NCBI RefSeq assembly: GCF_015277775.1
Contig: NZ_CP063849.1
Coordinates: 558,001-622,000 of the forward strand
Length of the DNA: 64,000 bases
Origin: Paludibaculum fermentans
GTDB taxonomy: Bacteria; Acidobacteriota; Terriglobia; Bryobacterales; Bryobacteraceae
Reading direction: 5' to 3'
In this document: positions 51,176 to 59,248 of the stretch, in pieces
Layout of the letters: each line of letters begins with the position of its first letter
How positions within the stretch are numbered: position 1 is the first letter of the stretch
Program-made: the position numbers and the translations under genes
Notes under the pieces: generated by a model
The model's input: the letters and a program-made list of their open reading frames with translations, nothing else
The model's database searches: none
What the model was told of the DNA's origin: nothing

Positions 51176-52011
51176 TGAATCGCGTCCTGGCGAAAAGGGA
51201 GCTGGCTCCCCTGGTGACCCTGCTGGAGGTGGAAGCGCCGCGCATTCAACGGCGCTGGAAGGCCGGGCAGTTCATCATCATAAGGCCGCTGGAGACGAGC
51301 GAGCGGATTCCCCTGACCATCGTCGATTCCAATGCCGAGCGGCAATCCATCACGATGGTGATCCAGGCGATCGGGAAGACGACAAAAGAGGCCGTGTCGC
51401 TGGAACCCGAGGCGCTGATGTGCGACCTGGTGGGGCCGTTGGGCGAGCCGGCCACAATGAGTAAGGGCAAGAATGTGGTGTGCATGGCGGGCGGAGTGGG
51501 CGTGGCGGAGCTGCTGCCCGTGGCGAAGGCGTTCCACCAGGCCGGGAACCGGGTGACGGCGCTGTGCGGGGCACGCTCAGAGAATTACCGGATCCTGGAT
51601 GCCGAGCTGAAAGAGGCCGTGGACGAGCTGCATTGGGCGACCGATGACGGCAGCTTCGGCTTTCATGGCAACGTCGTGCAACTGTTGAACAGCCTGGCTG
51701 GGCCGGACACCTTCCAGGAAGGGCACGTGATCGGGCCGATTCCGATGATGAAGGCGGCGGCCGAGGCGACGCGCGGTTGGGGGCTGAAGCTCCACGCCAG
51801 CCTGAATCCGGTGATGATCGACGGGACGGGCATGTGCGGCGGGTGCCGTGTGACGGTGGGCCACGAAGTGAAGTTCGCGTGCGTCGACGGCCCGGAGTTT
51901 GATGCGCACCTGGTGGATTTCGACGAGTTGACACGGCGGAACCGGGCTTACCGGGAGATGGAGCAGGAGTCGCTGAACCACAAGTGCCGGGTGGGCCTGG
52001 ATATTCACTAA
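51172..52011 (+). CDS. NfnS/sulfide dehydrogenase-like FAD/NAD-binding subunit
   Basis: 279 residues starting at ATGATG, with GGAGGTG just before; Met2 at 51175 is possible. It has a ferredoxin-reductase fold: FAD-binding barrel (GQFIIIRPLETSERIPLTI), NAD-binding domain (MAGGVGVAELLPVAKAF; LCGARSENY) and a [2Fe-2S] site with Cys222, Cys225 and Cys237 (TGMCGGCRVTVG; KFACVDG). The end (HLVDFDELTRRNRAY) matches Nfn small subunits and dihydroorotate dehydrogenase electron-transfer subunits. In Nfn this subunit carries the NADH site while the large one reduces NADP with ferredoxin. Overlap with the upstream gene supports one complex. Confidence 0.9.
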   Translation: MMNRVLAKRELAPLVTLLEVEAPRIQRRWKAGQFIIIRPLETSERIPLTIVDSNAERQSITMVIQAIGKTTKEAVSLEPEALMCDLVGPLGEPATMSKGKNVVCMAGGVGVAELLPVAKAFHQAGNRVTALCGARSENYRILDAELKEAVDELHWATDDGSFGFHGNVVQLLNSLAGPDTFQEGHVIGPIPMMKAAAEATRGWGLKLHASLNPVMIDGTGMCGGCRVTVGHEVKFACVDGPEFDAHLVDFDELTRRNRAYREMEQESLNHKCRVGLDIH

Positions 52012-52018
52012 CGGACGG

Positions 52019-52891
52019 TCACTGGGCGCGCCTGGTTTTTTTCGCGGGCGCCTTCTTCGGTGGAGCCTTCCTGGCGGGAGCCGTGGCCGCGCAAGCCGTC
52101 AGCGGGGCCCATTTCGAGGGATTCACGGCGACTGCGTGGACGTAGAGGCTCCAGTGCAGGTGCGGGCCGTTGGCTCGTCCGGTCGCGCCCACATAACCCA
52201 GGACATCTCCGGGCTTCACCGCGTCGCCTTCATGGGCGGCGGTCTTCGACATGTGTAGATAGATGGAGACGATGCCTTGGCCGTGGTCGACGCCGACTAC
52301 GTTGCCATGGATGTTGTAGGAACGGACCATGCGCACGGTGCCGGCGGCCGTGGCGACGATGGGCTTGCCGGCCGGTCCGCGCTGGTCGACTCCGGCGTGG
52401 TAGTTGCCGGTGGGTTTGCCGTTCTGGTAGCGCTGCACGCCGAAGGGCGAATTCATACAACCGGGGACGGGCGCCAGGAAGGGTTCGGCCCAGAGTTTCG
52501 CCGGCGATTCGAGGTGCTTCAGGGCGTTGACCGTCTCCGTCTCGCCGGGCGAGGGCTTCAGTTCGACCACTTCCTTGGAGAGGGCTACGTTTTGGGTGAG
52601 GTAGTGGGCGTCGAGGATGGTCAGCGTACGGGTTTCCAGGGTTTTCCCGTCCGCTGAGAGCAGTTCGAGGGGATAGTCGCCGGGTTTATCGATCACTGCT
52701 GCCGGGATGAGGGCGGTTCCGTCATAAATGGGGAACTTGCGGTCGTGAACGCGGGCAAAAGCTGCGTGCGTGGCGAAGCGGAGGACTTCGCCCTGTTTCA
52801 CGGCGAGGGGCGATTGGGCAGCGGCGGGGAGCGGCGCGAGGAAGAGGGTGAGTAGAAGAATGAGGCAGAGCAGGGCACGCATTTCAAACAT
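52019..52891 (-). CDS. M23-family (LytM-type) peptidoglycan metallopeptidase
   Basis: 290 residues with a signal peptide (LCLILLLTLFLAPLPAAAQ); Met4 is an alternative start. Residues ~28-130 form a beta-rich N-terminal domain (LKPSPGETETVNAL). The LytM domain then shows the zinc ligands His165 and Asp169 (NYHAGVD), catalytic His213 (YLHM) and the H-x-H pair His244/His246 (GPHLHWSL). All catalytic residues are present, so it should be an active endopeptidase on peptidoglycan peptide bonds. The C-terminus is very basic (APPKKAPAKKTRR), perhaps for wall binding. It is convergent with the NfnS-like gene, only 7 bp apart. Confidence 0.92.
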   Translation of the reverse strand: MFEMRALLCLILLLTLFLAPLPAAAQSPLAVKQGEVLRFATHAAFARVHDRKFPIYDGTALIPAAVIDKPGDYPLELLSADGKTLETRTLTILDAHYLTQNVALSKEVVELKPSPGETETVNALKHLESPAKLWAEPFLAPVPGCMNSPFGVQRYQNGKPTGNYHAGVDQRGPAGKPIVATAAGTVRMVRSYNIHGNVVGVDHGQGIVSIYLHMSKTAAHEGDAVKPGDVLGYVGATGRANGPHLHWSLYVHAVAVNPSKWAPLTACAATAPARKAPPKKAPAKKTRRAQ

Positions 52892-52967
52892 GGTACCGAG
52901 AATGTGGGATTGGCCGGGGCCGTGTTGCCTGGTGCGTTAAAATGGAGTTCCGCCGTGGCTAGACGCA

Positions 52968-53537
52968 ATGGGTGAAACGCCTGAGGACCAGATTACGTTT
53001 TTGCTGCAGAGCATGCGGCAGGGTGACGTGGCGGCGCGGACCCGGCTGGCGGCTGCGGTTTACCCGGAATTGAAGCGTATTGCCGCGAAACAGATGCAGC
53101 ATGAGCGTCTGGACCACACCCTTCAACCCACGGCGCTGGTGCACGAAGCCTTTGTGAAGCTGGCGGGCCACAGCGATTGGGCGATGCAGAACCGGGGTCA
53201 CTTTTTCGCCGTGGCGTCGCAGGTGATGCGGCAGATTCTGGTGGATCATGCGCGGCAATACCGTTCGTTGAAACGGGGCGGTGGCGGGGCGGCGGCGGAG
53301 ATCCAGGAGTGGCACCTGATCACGTCGGAGAAGCCGGATGTGGTGATTGAGGTCGACCGGCTGCTGACGCGGCTGGAGCAACTGGACGAGCGGCAGGCGC
53401 AGGTGGTGGTGATGCGCTACTTCGCGGGCTTCGCCGAGGAAGAGATCGCCCAGGCCCTGGGCATCTCCGTACGCACAGTCAAGCGGGATTGGAGCATGGC
53501 TCGCGCCTGGTTGCGCAAAGAGCTGGCTGCGTCATGA
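52968..53537 (+). CDS. ECF-like sigma factor (TIGR02999-type)
   Basis: 189 residues. It matches the ECF subgroup found in planctomycetes and acidobacteria, often paired with a Ser/Thr kinase: ITFLLQSMRQGD, VYPELKRIAAKQMQHER, ALVHEAFVKLAG, RGHFFAVASQVMRQILVDHA, then region 4 LDERQAQVVVMRYFAGF and ALGISVRTVKRDWSMARAWL. The stop overlaps the kinase start by 4 bp (atga), which ties the two together: the kinase-TPR protein probably controls or reads out this sigma factor. No anti-sigma factor is present. Confidence 0.93.
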   Translation: MGETPEDQITFLLQSMRQGDVAARTRLAAAVYPELKRIAAKQMQHERLDHTLQPTALVHEAFVKLAGHSDWAMQNRGHFFAVASQVMRQILVDHARQYRSLKRGGGGAAAEIQEWHLITSEKPDVVIEVDRLLTRLEQLDERQAQVVVMRYFAGFAEEEIAQALGISVRTVKRDWSMARAWLRKELAAS

Positions 53538-55762
53538 TCGCGGAACGCTGGGCGGCGCTCAAACAACTTTTCGAACAGGCCATGGAGATGGACGAAGCCG
53601 AGCGGCTGGCCTTTGTGGATGGCGCCTGCGCGGGTGATCCGTCGATGGAGCTGTCGCTGCTGCAACTGCTGGCGCACCACGACGCGGCGGCCTCGGTGCT
53701 GGCCGGGCCGGTGCTGTCGATGAAGCGGGCGGCGGAGATTGTGGGTTCCGGCATGCGCACCTTTGTGCCGGGCGAGGTGGTGGCCGGGCGGTTCCGGGTG
53801 GAGCGCTTCCTGGCCGAAGGCGGCATGGGCGAGGTTTACGCGGCAGCGGACCTGGAGCTGGGCGGGCAGGTGGCGCTCAAGACGATCCGGCCCCTGCTGA
53901 CCCGCAGCGAGGAGATTCTGGCGCGCTTCAAGCAGGAGATCCAGTTGGCCCGGCTGGTGACGCACGCGCATGTGGCGCGGGTCTACGATCTGTTCCGGCA
54001 CGAGGTGGAGCTGGACGGGCAGCGGCGGTCGATTGTGTTCCTGTCGATGGAGCTGCTGGATGGCGGGACGCTGGCCGAGCGCTTGCGCCGGGAGGGTCCG
54101 CTGAAGCATGAGCATGCCCTGGTGGTGGCGCGGCAACTGGCGGCGGCGTTGGATGCGGCGCACGCGGCGGGTGTCGTGCACCGCGATTTCAAGAGCGGCA
54201 ATGTGGTGCTGGCGCGAAACCTGGACGGCAGCGAACGGGCCGTGATTATGGACTTCGGGTTATCGGCGGCGGCGCGCCCGTTGCCGGAGAGCCCGTTGAG
54301 CGAATGGGACTCGGGGCGCATGGAGCGGGGTGCGATGGAAGGCACGCCGATGTATATGGCTCCGGAGCAGGTGGGCGGCGCGCCGGTGGGGCCGGCGGCG
54401 GACATCTACTCGTTCGGGATCGTGGTGTACGAGATGCTGGCCGGGCAGCCGCCGTTCCAGGGCACGACATCAATGGAGACGGCGTGGCTGCGGATGACAC
54501 AGGACGCTCCGGCGTTGCACGGCGTGCCGCGGCGCTGGAATGACGCGGTGCAGGCGTGCCTGACGCGCGATCCGGCGGGCCGGCCGGCCAGTGCGGAGGC
54601 CGTGGTGCGGCGGATGGAAGGGCGGTTTGCGTGGACCGCGGCGCGGCGGCGGGCGGCTCTCGCTTTGGCGGCGATGGTCCTGATCGCCGTGGCCGTGTGG
54701 GTGGTACGGCGGCCGCATCAACCTACAGCCGAGGCGCTGCTGGCGGCGGACGTGGCGCGGGTGAAGCAGAGTGCTCAGACGAAGCAGGGGCACGTCGAGG
54801 CGGTGGAGGGGTTCCGGAAGGCGACGGAGCTGGATCCGCAGTGGGCGCAGGCCTGGGCGGAGCTTTCGTACGAGTATGCGACGGCGGCCAACGCGGCGTC
54901 GCTGCCTCCGGCGCTGGCCACGAAGGAGGCGCGGCGGGCGGCGGCCGAGGCGATCCGGCTGGACAGTCATTCGAGCCGCGCATATGGGGCGCTGGGGTGG
55001 GTGCAGTCGCTGGATCTGGAGGAGTGGCCGAAGGCGGAGCAGTCGTTTCAGCGGGCCGTGGAACTGGATGCGAACGACTGGCAGATCCATTACTGGTTTG
55101 GAGTGCACCTGCGGAAGCGGGGCCGGTATCGGGATGCCGAGACGCACGACCGCCTGGCGCTGACACTGAGCCGCCAGAAGGAGCCGATGGTGTGGTGCGA
55201 GTTGGCGTTCCTCTACTGGACGTCGGGGCGGCTGGACCGCATGCAGCAGCACCTGCGCGAGCAACTGGTGGCGTTTCCGAATTTCGGGCTGACGCGGTAT
55301 CTGAATGCCCGGCTGCTGAAGCACCAGGGGCGCTATGCGGAGGCTCAGGAAGAGCTCGACTTCACGGCGAAGCTGCAGTACCCGGCGGTGACGGTGATGG
55401 CGGAGCGGGCGTCGTTGGAGGCGTTTCGCGGACGGCCGGACGAGGCGCGGCGGCTGCTGGCGCGGCTGGAGGAGATCTCCAGGACGGGCTCCGTCGACGG
55501 GCTGCTGATTGCGGGCGTGTACGCGCAACTGGGCGATGCGGACCAGGCGATGGCGTGGCTGGATCGCGCTTACGAACGGCGGGATACGACGCTGCTGTCG
55601 ATTGCGACGAGTCCGGTGCTGAAGCCGCTGCATGGCGATGCGCGGTTTGTGGCGCTGCTGCGGCGGCTGCACTTCGACGATCAGATCATGCAGCAGATGG
55701 GGTTCAATTCGTCCTCGGTCAGCGGCGCGGGCAGCCAGCCGAGGCGCGGCGGGCAGTCGTAG
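53534..55762 (+). CDS. transmembrane Ser/Thr protein kinase with C-terminal TPR region
   Basis: 742 residues from the ATG overlapping the sigma gene. An N-terminal ~75 residues (ERWAALKQLFEQAMEMDEAE) is a helical segment common ahead of these kinases. The kinase domain shows a glycine loop (LAEGGMGEVYAA), Lys116, Asp218 (HRDFKSGN), MDFG and YMAPEQ. A membrane helix (ALALAAMVLIAVAVWVV) lies near 375-393. Tetratricopeptide-like repeats follow to the end (EGFRKATELDPQWAQAWAEL; EQSFQRAVELDANDWQIHYW; GVYAQLGDADQAMAWLDRAY). The last ~25 residues read into the overlapping ycaO gene. Signal and substrates unknown. Confidence 0.92.
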   Translation: MIAERWAALKQLFEQAMEMDEAERLAFVDGACAGDPSMELSLLQLLAHHDAAASVLAGPVLSMKRAAEIVGSGMRTFVPGEVVAGRFRVERFLAEGGMGEVYAAADLELGGQVALKTIRPLLTRSEEILARFKQEIQLARLVTHAHVARVYDLFRHEVELDGQRRSIVFLSMELLDGGTLAERLRREGPLKHEHALVVARQLAAALDAAHAAGVVHRDFKSGNVVLARNLDGSERAVIMDFGLSAAARPLPESPLSEWDSGRMERGAMEGTPMYMAPEQVGGAPVGPAADIYSFGIVVYEMLAGQPPFQGTTSMETAWLRMTQDAPALHGVPRRWNDAVQACLTRDPAGRPASAEAVVRRMEGRFAWTAARRRAALALAAMVLIAVAVWVVRRPHQPTAEALLAADVARVKQSAQTKQGHVEAVEGFRKATELDPQWAQAWAELSYEYATAANAASLPPALATKEARRAAAEAIRLDSHSSRAYGALGWVQSLDLEEWPKAEQSFQRAVELDANDWQIHYWFGVHLRKRGRYRDAETHDRLALTLSRQKEPMVWCELAFLYWTSGRLDRMQQHLREQLVAFPNFGLTRYLNARLLKHQGRYAEAQEELDFTAKLQYPAVTVMAERASLEAFRGRPDEARRLLARLEEISRTGSVDGLLIAGVYAQLGDADQAMAWLDRAYERRDTTLLSIATSPVLKPLHGDARFVALLRRLHFDDQIMQQMGFNSSSVSGAGSQPRRGGQS

Positions 55763-57366
55763 AGACGGCCGGGCGCGCGGCGGTTCCAGATGTGGCGCAG
55801 GCCGGGCACGATGGCGCGCGCGGTATGGAGTAAAACATCCGGGCGGCTGTGATCCACGGCGTAGGCGCGAAGTCCGGCGGCTTGCAGCGTTTCCAGGATT
55901 AGTTCAATTTGCGCGAGGGTGGTGAGCGGCGGCGGCTCGGGCGGCGCGTCGACTTCCCCGTGGGGCTCCAGGTAAGGCTGCGTGGCGAGGGTCTCCCGCA
56001 GGAGCCAGGGGCGGAGCGAGTCCGGCAGGCGGCCGGTGGTCTGGGCGGTGGTCCAGACCTGGGCGGCTTCGCTGGCGGCTTTCCAGGCGGCGACGCGCGG
56101 GGACGGGTGGGCGGCGGAGGCGAAGAGGAGCTCCGAGCCGTCGAGACGCGGGGCTACGGAGACATAGACCGGGATGCCGAAGTCCGTGGTGCAGTCGAGC
56201 AGGTAGAGGCGGCGCCCGATGGCCCGCAGGGACTCGGCGGCGGTGAGGAGCTGCGGGTCGTCGAAGGACTCCAGGCGGACGGCGGGGCGGCGGGCGCGGC
56301 TGTACCACCAGAGCGACATGGCGTCGCGTTCGATCCATTCCAGCAAAGCGTGGGCCAGGGCGTCGTCGAAGGTGCGGCCGCTGCCGCAGCCGATGGTGTC
56401 GGCGCTGGCGAAACGGGGCTCGCCTGGCTGGAACTGGTACCACATGAGGCAACAGGCAGCGGGGACATAGCGGGCTGGGCCGCCGTGGAGGTCGCGGGCT
56501 TCGAGCCAGTCGACGGGGTGAGCGGGATTGAAGGGATCAGGGATGCGAAAGATCTCGTCGGGCAGGGCATTCCAGCGGTCGCGCCGGGCATACTGGGCGC
56601 TGCTGTAGAGCTGGATGGTGTCCGGGTGGAGGATGTCGAGCTCTGAGGTTTTGGCACGAATCAGGGGTTCGTCGCCGCGATAGATGAGGCTGTAGCGTTC
56701 GAGGGCTTCTCCGATGGCGCCGTCGATCGCTTCCGCGGCGGTGCGGCCCCGGCCGTAGGAGGCCTGGCGGCGGAGCAGGGGCCGGGCGCGATGGACGGGC
56801 AGGGGGCTGTTCCAGACCGCGTGGGCGCGGAAGGCTCCGGCGGAGGGGGCGGAGCTGACTTCGACGCGGTTGACGATGCCGGTGAGGGGCGCGCAGTGGG
56901 CCTGGAGAGGGAGGTCTCGCGGGTGTTGGGGGCCGCCGCAGGCATCGCAATTGCGACGCGGGTAGACGTACTGAAACGTGACTTTGGCGGTGGCGTAGTC
57001 GAGGACGGCGACGGTGTTGGGCGGCGGAGTGGCCTGCAGCAGGGCTCCGATCAAAGGAACGGCAGCCGGGGGTGGAGTTTCTTCGGCCTGCTGCCGATGG
57101 AACTGGGTAATCGCGAGCCAGTGAAGTAGGCACTGGCCGCAGGAACCCGAGCCGTGCCAGTGGGCAAGAACGGCGACATCGGTAAACAGGACCAATAGGA
57201 TTGCGGGCTGGGGCCGATGCAATAGGAGATGCCCCAGGTCGTGCAGGCCAAAGCAAAGGCACAAGGCAGAATCTCCGGGCGCCGCGGTCCAATAGGGCGC
57301 GATCTCACTGAGAAACGCGCGGGCGGGCCCGCTCAACAGCGCGGGGCTATGAATTGAGCCTGGCAT
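55681..57366 (-). CDS. YcaO-domain protein with N-terminal zinc domain (azoline-forming RiPP enzyme, TOMM-type)
   Basis: 561 residues. The N-terminal ~160 residues look like the zinc-binding part of TOMM cyclodehydratase C-proteins, with Cys76-x2-Cys79 (SCGQCLLHW) and Cys140-x2-Cys143 (NCDACGG). The YcaO domain follows: SYGRGRTAAEAIDG, with the ATP/Mg residues Glu220 and Glu223 (GEALERYS) and Glu343/Glu346 (LLEWIERDA). YcaO enzymes use ATP to turn peptide Cys, Ser or Thr into thiazoline/oxazoline, or to form thioamides, in ribosomally made peptides. The C-terminal motif, usually Pro-rich and ending in hydrophobic residues, is here LNPICCMI. It is divergent from the 178-aa gene and overlaps the kinase gene by 82 bp. 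No dehydrogenase or protease for a RiPP cluster is seen. Confidence 0.88.
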   Translation of the reverse strand: MPGSIHSPALLSGPARAFLSEIAPYWTAAPGDSALCLCFGLHDLGHLLLHRPQPAILLVLFTDVAVLAHWHGSGSCGQCLLHWLAITQFHRQQAEETPPPAAVPLIGALLQATPPPNTVAVLDYATAKVTFQYVYPRRNCDACGGPQHPRDLPLQAHCAPLTGIVNRVEVSSAPSAGAFRAHAVWNSPLPVHRARPLLRRQASYGRGRTAAEAIDGAIGEALERYSLIYRGDEPLIRAKTSELDILHPDTIQLYSSAQYARRDRWNALPDEIFRIPDPFNPAHPVDWLEARDLHGGPARYVPAACCLMWYQFQPGEPRFASADTIGCGSGRTFDDALAHALLEWIERDAMSLWWYSRARRPAVRLESFDDPQLLTAAESLRAIGRRLYLLDCTTDFGIPVYVSVAPRLDGSELLFASAAHPSPRVAAWKAASEAAQVWTTAQTTGRLPDSLRPWLLRETLATQPYLEPHGEVDAPPEPPPLTTLAQIELILETLQAAGLRAYAVDHSRPDVLLHTARAIVPGLRHIWNRRAPGRLYDCPPRLGWLPAPLTEDELNPICCMI

Positions 57367-57464
57367 GGATCCGTTCGATTGTCACAATCGGCGCAACCGG
57401 CTGGACGCGGGCGTTGGCCTGGCGGTCCAGTTTTTGAGAGTACGGCAAAGGGAGGAAGTGGTTC

Positions 57465-58001
57465 ATGGGCGCGAGAATTGACAAGGGTACGACGGTCACC
57501 ATCGATTTTAGAGAAAAGGACGGCAGCGCGAGCGAGAAGCCCTCGATCGTGACCGAGCATATTGAACTTTTCGGGACCGATCGATGCAATGTGTTGACGA
57601 AGGGCGGGCTCGACATCCCGGCCTACTCCGACTTAGGCAGCCAGGACTGGCTCACCGTGGTGGCGATTGCGGATTCCGTCGAGAATCTCGTGCATTTGAA
57701 GAACTACCTGGGCGAGCAGGAGTACTGCCTGGAGCAGCCGCAGACGTCGGCGTCGAGCTACGGGGTGGCGATTGCGGAGTATAAGGCGGATGGGACGATT
57801 GAGGTGGACAATGGGTGCGTGACGCTGGCGACGGGCAGCGACGTCATCATTCCGCCGGAGGTGACGGGCGGGGCGGCGGCGCTCTATGTGAACGTCAACC
57901 ACATCTACGTGTTCCCTCCGGGCACGCGCATGAGTGCGGATAATCCGTTTGGATTGCCGTGGGCGGCGGTCGCGCCGACTGCCTGCCTTGGCGGCGAGTG
58001 A
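57465..58001 (+). CDS. unknown 178-aa protein divergent from ycaO, possible YcaO substrate or partner
   Basis: 178 residues with a strong AGGGAGGAAG site before the ATG. There is no signal peptide. It has four cysteines (41, 88, 118, 174), a Gly-rich beta-type C-terminal half (VDNGCVTLATGSDVIIPPEV; GAAALYVNVNHIYVFPPGT) and ends in ACLGGE. It is not a typical short precursor peptide, and no leader of the NHLP type is evident, but its position 98 bp from a TOMM-type YcaO makes it the first candidate partner. It may instead be an unrelated structural or regulatory protein. I do not recognise the family. Confidence 0.65.
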   Translation: MGARIDKGTTVTIDFREKDGSASEKPSIVTEHIELFGTDRCNVLTKGGLDIPAYSDLGSQDWLTVVAIADSVENLVHLKNYLGEQEYCLEQPQTSASSYGVAIAEYKADGTIEVDNGCVTLATGSDVIIPPEVTGGAAALYVNVNHIYVFPPGTRMSADNPFGLPWAAVAPTACLGGE

Positions 58002-58023
58002 TCCGGATCGACTGAAGGGACGG

Positions 58024-58052
58024 GCGAGGGCGGCCGGCCGGGCTGCCCTCGC
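58024..58052. terminator. bidirectional terminator-like hairpin between convergent genes
   Basis: An 11-bp stem (gcgagggcggc with gctgccctcgc, one mismatch) and a 7-nt loop lie between the 178-aa gene (stop 58001) and alkaline phosphatase (stop 58068). Without a T-run the termination strength is uncertain, but the position suits both genes. Confidence 0.5.
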
Positions 58053-58067
58053 TGGCGCACCAGTAGC

Positions 58068-59162
58068 CTAGTCGGCCTTCCAGCCGTAGGCGGATAACAT
58101 GATCTGGAACAGATCCGTGTTCACCAGGAAGCCCTTCACCTTGGAGGCTCCCGGGCCTGTTGCGGCTACCAGGACCTGCTCTCCAGAGTGCTTGCCCTGG
58201 ATCACCACACCTTTGTTCGAAACGGGTTTGCCGTCGGCGCCCGGCGTGAAATAGGGCGTGCCCTTGGCGAGGCCGACGGTGCGCAGGTCGAAGGAGTGGT
58301 CGGCCGTGAAAAGGACCAGCGTGTTCGACTGGAGCTTCGTGGCCGTGCTCTCCACCAGTTTGTCGACGACCGGAACACGGCCCAGTCCGCGGTCGATCTT
58401 GTCTGTATGCAGGTCCGACTCGACCATGAGGAAGAAGCCCTTGGGGTTCTTCGACAGGATCTCGATGGCGGCATTTGTGGCGGAGGTGACGTCGAAGTCG
58501 GCGTCGTCGGTGAGCACCACGGCGCGCTTCGTGCCCGGCGGAACGTCCTTCAGCGCGGAGCCGTAGAAGTAGCCCTTATTCTTGAGCTCGGTCTCGATGT
58601 TCTGGCCCAGGGCGGCGGTGGCGGCGGTGATGGCTTTGCGGCCGGGTCCGAAGACGATGTCGACGCCGTCACCGAAGCGCGGCTTCCAGACCTGGGCGAA
58701 GATCTCGCCGATCATTTTGCGGCTGGGGGCGTGGGCATAGCAGGCGGCGGGGGTGGCGTCGGCCATGGGGCTGTTGGAGACGACACCGGTGGAAAGGCCG
58801 TGCTGTTCGGCATATTCGAGGATGGTCTTCAGGGCGGCGCCGCTGGTTTGGCCCGGCGCGGGAACTGTTTCCGAGATGACACCGTTGTTGGTCTTCTGGC
58901 CGGTGACGATGGCGGTCATGCCGGCGGCGGAATCGGTCACCCAGTTGTTGGCGGCCGAGGTATCGGAGAGGCCGATGTTGGGCATGCGCTGGATGAACAG
59001 GGCATTGGGCTTGCCGTAAGCCTGGATGGAGCCGGCATGGAGGGTGGGGATGCCGCCGGCGTCGCCGAGGAAGAGGACGATGTTCTTTGCCTTCTTTTCT
59101 CCAGCACAGACGAGGGTGGAACAGGCCAAGGCGAGGGCCAGCGAGGTACGAAGAATGCGCAC
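58068..59162 (-). CDS. alkaline phosphatase (PhoA family)
   Basis: 364 residues from a GTG at 59162 (a GGAG lies ~12 nt upstream). A signal peptide (LALALACSTLVCA) starts it. Metal-binding and catalytic elements: NIVLFLGDAGGIP, the nucleophile Ser78 in VTDSAAGMTA, DDADFDVTSAT, MVESDLHTDK and FTADHSFDLR with KHSGEQVLVA. These match the alkaline phosphatase family, a periplasmic enzyme that releases phosphate from organic phosphomonoesters using zinc. It is shorter than E. coli PhoA (~470) but in range for compact members. It is divergent from the gene at 59249; no Pho box could be established by eye. Confidence 0.9.
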   Translation of the reverse strand: MRILRTSLALALACSTLVCAGEKKAKNIVLFLGDAGGIPTLHAGSIQAYGKPNALFIQRMPNIGLSDTSAANNWVTDSAAGMTAIVTGQKTNNGVISETVPAPGQTSGAALKTILEYAEQHGLSTGVVSNSPMADATPAACYAHAPSRKMIGEIFAQVWKPRFGDGVDIVFGPGRKAITAATAALGQNIETELKNKGYFYGSALKDVPPGTKRAVVLTDDADFDVTSATNAAIEILSKNPKGFFLMVESDLHTDKIDRGLGRVPVVDKLVESTATKLQSNTLVLFTADHSFDLRTVGLAKGTPYFTPGADGKPVSNKGVVIQGKHSGEQVLVAATGPGASKVKGFLVNTDLFQIMLSAYGWKAD

Positions 59163-59248
59163 GATGATAAGAAACTCCTCTCTTTAGATTAGTGATTCCG
59201 GGCCGCCGAGTTTGGCCTGAGTCGTGCAGGTAGTCATGCCGGATAGCT

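Follow-up and report, generated by a model that had tools for sequence, protein, structure and literature searches.

A recurrent acidobacterial YcaO locus with a kinase–sigma factor pair and a divergent protein-sized candidate client

We analyzed a stretch of 64,000 nucleotides of the Paludibaculum fermentans genome (contig NZ_CP063849.1, positions 558,001 to 622,000; hereafter the window, whose own coordinates are used below), with emphasis on a YcaO gene (55681-57366, minus strand) and a gene for a 178-amino-acid protein, X (57465-58001, plus strand). As stated in an original prediction made from the sequence, the two open reading frames (ORFs) are divergent and 98 bp apart; the region between them (57367-57464) presumably contains both promoters. 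The same prediction had called the YcaO an orphan, which did not hold. A gene for a Ser/Thr kinase with C-terminal tetratricopeptide (TPR) repeats (53534-55762, plus strand; PF00069, 6.9e-43, and TPR models) meets the YcaO gene tail to tail with an 82-bp overlap of the 3' ends (55681-55762), and next to it lies a gene for an extracytoplasmic function (ECF) sigma factor (52968-53537, plus strand; PF07638, 1.7e-55) belonging to TIGR02999 (Sig-70_X6; 207.4 bits, cut-off 126.15). Kinase, sigma factor and overlap had all gone unmentioned, and both genes belong to the module. No gap inside it is longer than 98 bp, so another precursor gene would not fit. The locus is a genuine YcaO variant that recurs in other Acidobacteria, and X, which founds a new family (XA) and is divergent from YcaO in every genome where it was found, is a candidate for the client or substrate of this enzyme.

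Pfam confirmed the YcaO assignment (PF02624, E 8.8e-72). The closest NCBIfam model was TIGR03604 (SagD family), whose cut-off of 219.25 bits was reached neither by the window enzyme (207.9 bits) nor by those of three linked relatives (218.4, 212.4 and 206.3 bits); the window enzyme was also far under the cut-offs for McrA thioamidation (TIGR03266) and S12 accessory (NF040716) YcaOs, and no TfuA model matched among the genes scanned. The residues singled out previously (Cys76/79, Cys140/143 and Glu220/223/343/346) had been numbered correctly and were all invariant across seven aligned kinase-linked YcaOs; in a nine-sequence alignment the four Glu were still invariant and the Cys columns dropped out, the G040 row lacking this region. 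The window protein has 561 residues versus 775-784 for LynD/TruD-type enzymes, and its profile alignment starts at LynD residue 117 and TruD residue 155; thus, the N-terminal part, which in LynD we take to be the leader-binding domain, is missing. TIGR03882 (fused C-D cyclodehydratase, leader-binding/E1-like) gave only 18.8 bits in the window enzyme against a cut-off of 36.9, and this region was present in the YcaOs of G670 (73.3 bits) and G041 (90.7 bits). In a predicted structure (m697f126e9866; predicted local distance difference test score (pLDDT) 84.3, predicted TM-score (pTM) 0.87), the fold was of the LynD/TruD heterocyclase type: Foldseek returned LynD as the best match (4v1v, E 2e-45, TM-score 0.84 on the query), and LynD, MusD and TruD were the three nearest solved proteins (0.75-0.86 on the query). 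We conclude that the window YcaO resembles SagD and LynD; its E1-like region, with two CxxC pairs, is reduced, and the N-terminal leader-binding domain is absent.

X has a strong ribosome-binding site (AAAGGGAGGAAG), four Cys and the C-terminal sequence ACLGGE, all as originally described. It was likewise correctly placed outside recognized families, since no Pfam or NCBIfam model, including those of nitrile hydratase leader peptide (NHLP) and NHLP-Burk precursors, matched at E<=1; PADLOC and PHROGs returned nothing, and plasmid and phage records contained no match to the window X at E 0.01. Its structure model was of low confidence (mean pLDDT 56.8, pTM 0.56), with best E values of 0.13 for Foldseek against the Protein Data Bank (PDB) and 0.5 for a profile search of PDB sequences. 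X shares 91, 73 and 60% identity with three further copies, and the ratio of nonsynonymous to synonymous substitution rates (dN/dS) between G000 and G002 was 0.055 for X, with synonymous sites near saturation, 0.175 for YcaO, 0.107 for the kinase and 0.094 for the sigma factor. These identities and the low dN/dS value indicate that X is a real gene, and it is under strong purifying selection. No precursor with a recognizable leader and a Cys/Ser/Thr-rich core, as expected for azoline-containing ribosomally synthesized and post-translationally modified peptides, was detected at the window locus, given the missing NCBIfam match, the unenriched core of X and the short gaps inside the module.

Searches with the single X sequence identified it in 3 of 121 relatives, and a profile search in 2 of 396 genomes of the phylum, the window's own included. 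Altogether, six copies were found in four genomes of two families (G000, G002 and G006 from one genus, and G373 from another family), with tandem pairs in G006 and G373. In all four genomes X adjoins the YcaO ortholog on the divergent strand. The original prediction had asked whether X homologs co-occur with YcaO at conserved Cys positions or lie mostly away from it; the pairing was borne out, no X away from YcaO being found, and the Cys conservation was not. The X of G373 has about 30% identity to the window X, and the four-gene order is preserved between the two loci (sigma factor 47%, kinase 46%, YcaO 49%, X 35% over 114 amino acids). Of eight further genomes searched in this genus, six gave no X; three of these six are less than 90% complete. 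Homologs of genes flanking the module enclose a glycosyltransferase gene (PF00535) in the sister genomes G007 and G008; the phosphatase homologs there are only 47-48% identical, so this is likely, not proven, to be the same site. A scan of genome contigs with a YcaO alignment matched at least 549 relatives, of which the 80 best were kept; X was present in one of these, L085.

To examine how general the arrangement is, we surveyed 51 regions of Acidobacteria, chosen from the YcaO matches listed, with genes called by a custom script; they gave 54 YcaO rows, some of them tandem genes and two of them pieces of a single broken gene. A tail-to-tail kinase was present in 15 of the 54 rows (gaps of -82 to +93 bp) and a SagB-like dehydrogenase gene within 5 kb in 20, no row having both and 19 having neither, several of the latter at contig ends (Fisher p 3e-4 for exclusivity, the rows not being independent). 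No SagB-like gene occurred within 5 kb of the window pair. The remaining matches were viewed with 1.5-kb flanks, which are too short to exclude SagB; when all 90 YcaO loci with short flanks were rechecked, no kinase-linked locus was added to the 15 distinct ones. An ECF sigma gene was found nearby in 13 of the 15 linked rows; in one of the other two, G636, the contig ends at the kinase. A family search showed kinase linkage in 14 of 29 YcaO rows. Among the 80 contig loci that were the best of at least 549 relatives, 52 had a SagB-like gene, and L085 was the only one with an ECF sigma match and the only one with a directly adjacent tail-to-tail kinase (in L159 the kinase is 1.7 kb away). The window's genome contains 43 kinase and 36 ECF-type matches within 9.5 Mb, which makes it implausible that such genes came to be neighbors of YcaO repeatedly by chance.

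Phylogenetic analysis was also carried out with quick trees for which only Shimodaira-Hasegawa-like approximate likelihood ratio support was computed. Label changes were fewer than with shuffled labels for the kinase (3 vs 11.5), the sigma factor (4 vs 11.2) and YcaO (5 vs 14.2). The kinase-domain tree included 20 background kinases, one own-genome sigma–kinase neighborhood having been left out of the 20 background stretches, and 14 of the 15 linked kinases fell into one group (support 85) that also held a kinase of the window's genome (L245). The YcaO tree, which took 40 of the 79 loci L086-L164, dropped matches covering little of the domain and gave a long-branch warning (G009 with G071), contained a clade of 10 linked rows plus G071. 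On the basis of these results, the kinase–sigma–YcaO–X module is very probably a genuine unit. Within the window's genome (L258:8727-13462, about 5.10 Mb), a kinase that groups with the linked ones is followed by a 108-amino-acid ORF, for which Pfam gave no match, and by a tyrosinase gene (PF00264, 1.3e-30); here a different modifying enzyme may be combined with the same chassis.

Partners other than XA were found at related loci. Thirteen kinase-linked loci had at least 1 kb of sequence 5' of YcaO, and 11 of them had a divergent ORF of 90-324 amino acids. The XA type was represented by G000, G002, G006-1 and G373, and the XB type by G006-2 and G559, the latter with two fused repeats and an intervening transposase gene (PF01797). 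The XC type occurred in G551, with a homolog in G583, where the contig stops short of any kinase; G670, G009, G041 and G553 each contributed a single-sequence candidate. Members matched one another at about 2e-7 (XC) and 2e-25 to 9e-47 (XB), as E values for a set of 14 proteins. The divergent pair was kept in G009 and G006-2, where the sigma gene sits on the other side. Subtilase genes (PF00082, 1.1e-13 and 1.2e-13; L199:5730-6842 and L202:793-2043) lie between sigma factor and X in G551 and G583, so that one of the two subtilase loci is kinase-linked; a protein of G559 looked trypsin-like by eye (GDSGS), without Pfam support. In G071 (L079:9147-16585), YcaO, an exosortase gene (PF09721), an X-like gene of 188 codons, a kinase and a sigma factor occur in one stretch, with the last four about 2 to 6 kb from YcaO; this may be the module in rearranged form. 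Pairwise shuffles gave z of about 6 for the G071 protein against XB and 4.3 against G373a, but E values over the ORFs compared were 6 to 14, so no common origin is claimed. A search of 237 genomes for further members of the G071 type returned G071 and one match in G057, which was rejected as RibB-like by eye.

With regard to the control arm, the window sigma factor carries QPTA (Thr55, counted by hand) at the position of the canonical acidic DAED motif of ECF sigma factors, and Q[PA][TS][AD] replaced DAED in 14 of 14 aligned linked sigma factors, the motif having been placed by us. Most background sigma factors of the window's genome also have a DAED-replacing motif, and thus it marks a sigma class, not the link to YcaO. 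The kinase has a hydrophobic segment at about residues 374-392 (maximum 2.42 over 19 residues) that, judging from hydropathy, probably spans the membrane. The missing DAED and the kinase next door are traits shared with the phospho-activated ECF43 type. EcfP, which has STTA in place of DAED, is described as being phosphorylated on the second Thr by its neighboring kinase (PMC8999054), and EcfK/PknS is given as a second such case (PMC8999054; PMC13147305); many sigma and kinase paralogs have been reported in Ca. Solibacter usitatus Ellin6076 (PMC3174227). The window pair thus shares with EcfP/PknT and EcfK/PknS the sigma–kinase adjacency and the Thr/Ser motif, a likeness at the level of genes, and differs in having YcaO among its neighbors. 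By analogy with these systems, it is likely that the kinase controls the sigma factor.

The closest published arrangement seen for the locus as a whole is the thiazole/oxazole-modified microcin (TOMM) system of the NHLP type in Burkholderia (NHLP-Burk, TIGR03795; TOMM_kin_cyc, TIGR03903), with which the kinase-linked loci share a YcaO with a Ser/Thr kinase and, in some of them, tandem or fused partner copies. These clusters are described as encoding a large Ser/Thr kinase, a fused cyclodehydratase/YcaO and precursors that are either fused or arranged as tandem pairs (PMC2887384, PMC4603692), and the long, structured NHLP leaders as being recognized by YcaO through protein–protein contacts (PMC12455567). 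In contrast, X has no NHLP match, the window locus adds an ECF sigma factor, its YcaO lacks the leader-binding domain, and the match of its kinase to TIGR03903 is confined to the kinase portion of that model (124.7 bits, cut-off 705.75). The comparison may indicate a way of working rather than membership. With the cyanobactin heterocyclases LynD and TruD, and with MusD, the window enzyme shares the YcaO fold and E1-like region in the predicted model, whereas it lacks their N-terminal leader-binding domain and the locus has no short precursor. A protein client (a candidate one here) rather than a short peptide is the feature in common with the YcaOs of TIGR03266 and NF040716. No description of a YcaO with an ECF sigma–kinase pair appeared in the titles or abstract openings of the literature searched, whose coverage was partial.

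Genes beyond the module comprise an M23-peptidase gene past the sigma gene (52019-52891; PF01551, 3.3e-27), also absent from the earlier description, and an alkaline-phosphatase gene (58068-59162); both are kept in G002 and G006. The -82-bp kinase/YcaO gap recurs in G002 and G006-1. Four YcaO orthologs have the C-terminus ELNPICCMI in common, with an antisense overlap with the kinase gene of 82 bp in three and 27 bp in one, and this overlap may constrain both gene ends. No conserved promoter box was seen by eye in the alignment of the divergent region and no Rfam family in 52000-59200; no transporter turned up among the neighbors scanned, no search having been aimed at transporters. PADLOC matches of the kinase looked generic, of kinase type only, and a defense system was rejected. 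A second, different YcaO of the window's genome (L046:8340-10085) precedes a tRNA pseudouridine synthase gene (PF01416), and G002 (L084) has a similar arrangement.

The best reading of these data, which we hold as an even proposition, is a YcaO under kinase and sigma control that acts on a protein-sized client, X. The TPR kinase would sense a signal and, as extrapolated from EcfP/PknT, phosphorylate the Ser/Thr found in region 2.2 in place of the acidic motif, thereby activating the ECF sigma factor, which would in turn switch on the divergent YcaO/X pair. The YcaO, with its modeled LynD/TruD/MusD fold, would then act on X, changing it most likely by azoline-type backbone chemistry at Ser/Thr/Cys; no dehydrogenase adjoins to carry out azole formation. 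That X is the substrate, for which the case is balanced, is argued from its constant pairing with YcaO, the tandem and fused copies, and the differing X on a constant kinase, sigma and YcaO; if so, azolines would be a somewhat favored chemistry. T94, S95 and S98 of X are invariant in the six copies, beside a low-confidence stretch of the model (residues 86-98), and suggest, speculatively, TSASS (residues 94-98; 57744-57758, plus strand) as a modification site. More tentatively, the module could be a signal-inducible switch in which the kinase-activated sigma factor turns on YcaO and a folded X, backbone heterocycles are installed by YcaO inside X, which functions as a modified protein without being cut down to a short peptide, and XA, XB, XC and the others are diversified clients on a constant kinase–sigma–YcaO chassis.

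Several alternatives should be weighed against the client reading. X might be an adaptor that is not itself modified, presenting another, unlinked substrate in place of the lost leader-binding domain. Its strong conservation and the weak TIGR03882 score of the window YcaO would fit this role; however, the YcaOs of G670 and G041 have TIGR03882 intact and still a divergent X candidate, and tandem and fused copies suit a client better, so that we regard an adaptor as a minority possibility. It is unlikely, although conceivable, that the YcaO does act on X but by another chemistry (ATP-dependent peptidase activity, thioamide or amidine formation) rather than azolines. In favor of this, the enzyme ends in ICCMI and not in the PxPxP tail, the YcaO C-terminal motif used for comparison, and MusD (7u58), with an entry title naming YcaO-mediated ATP-dependent peptidase activity, is among its three nearest solved proteins; against it, LynD is the best fold match and TfuA models had no match among the genes scanned.

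X could also belong to the signaling arm, as ligand, kinase substrate or sigma regulator, with YcaO as a co-regulated output acting elsewhere. The G071 locus, where the X-like gene adjoins the kinase and YcaO lies about 3 kb off, and the own-genome tyrosinase locus, where a linked-group kinase stands beside a small ORF and not beside YcaO, speak for it; the divergent X–YcaO pair is nevertheless kept in most loci, even with the sigma gene on the other side, which makes this role improbable. Chance inheritance of an unrelated hypothetical gene with YcaO would account for the rarity of X, but it is very hard to reconcile with the retention of X across two families, where the four-gene order is preserved and tandem copies occur, or with the glycosyltransferase gene at the likely same site in the sister genomes.

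It should be noted that a number of observations weigh against X as the client of a general module. X is more constrained than YcaO, unlike a precursor with a variable core, and no Cys is common to all six copies (C41 in four and C118 in five, read from the alignment; G373a has no Cys at all). The ACLGGE ending, originally put forward as a feature, is confined to the window X; this partial conservation had not been recognized. Thus, X is not a textbook short-core precursor. Density and clustering of Ser/Thr/Cys in the window X are ordinary (shuffle p 0.483), and among the other X types only G670 fell below 0.05 (0.025, unadjusted). The X candidates of G041 and G553 are singletons, possibly not genes, the divergent gene of G636 encodes a PEP-CTERM protein (PF07589), and G040 has no divergent X. 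Relatedness of the X types is unproven, hhalign comparisons of XA with G670/G009 and with XB not being significant. As for the module, G549 has no visible sigma gene in the 4.3 kb beyond the kinase, the X-like gene of G071 adjoins the kinase instead of YcaO, and G013, G553, G040, G551 and G636 fall outside the main YcaO clade, G636 being outside the linked group in the kinase tree as well.

Most work on YcaO enzymes concerns short precursor peptides. Our results describe a recurrent acidobacterial YcaO type that has no adjoining dehydrogenase and is tied to a kinase–sigma pair and varying protein-sized partners, and the tail-to-tail kinase provides a genome-mining handle for loci that precursor-based tools would probably miss. 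If X is the substrate, the module would make YcaO chemistry on an entire protein accessible to study and would link phospho-signaling to backbone modification.

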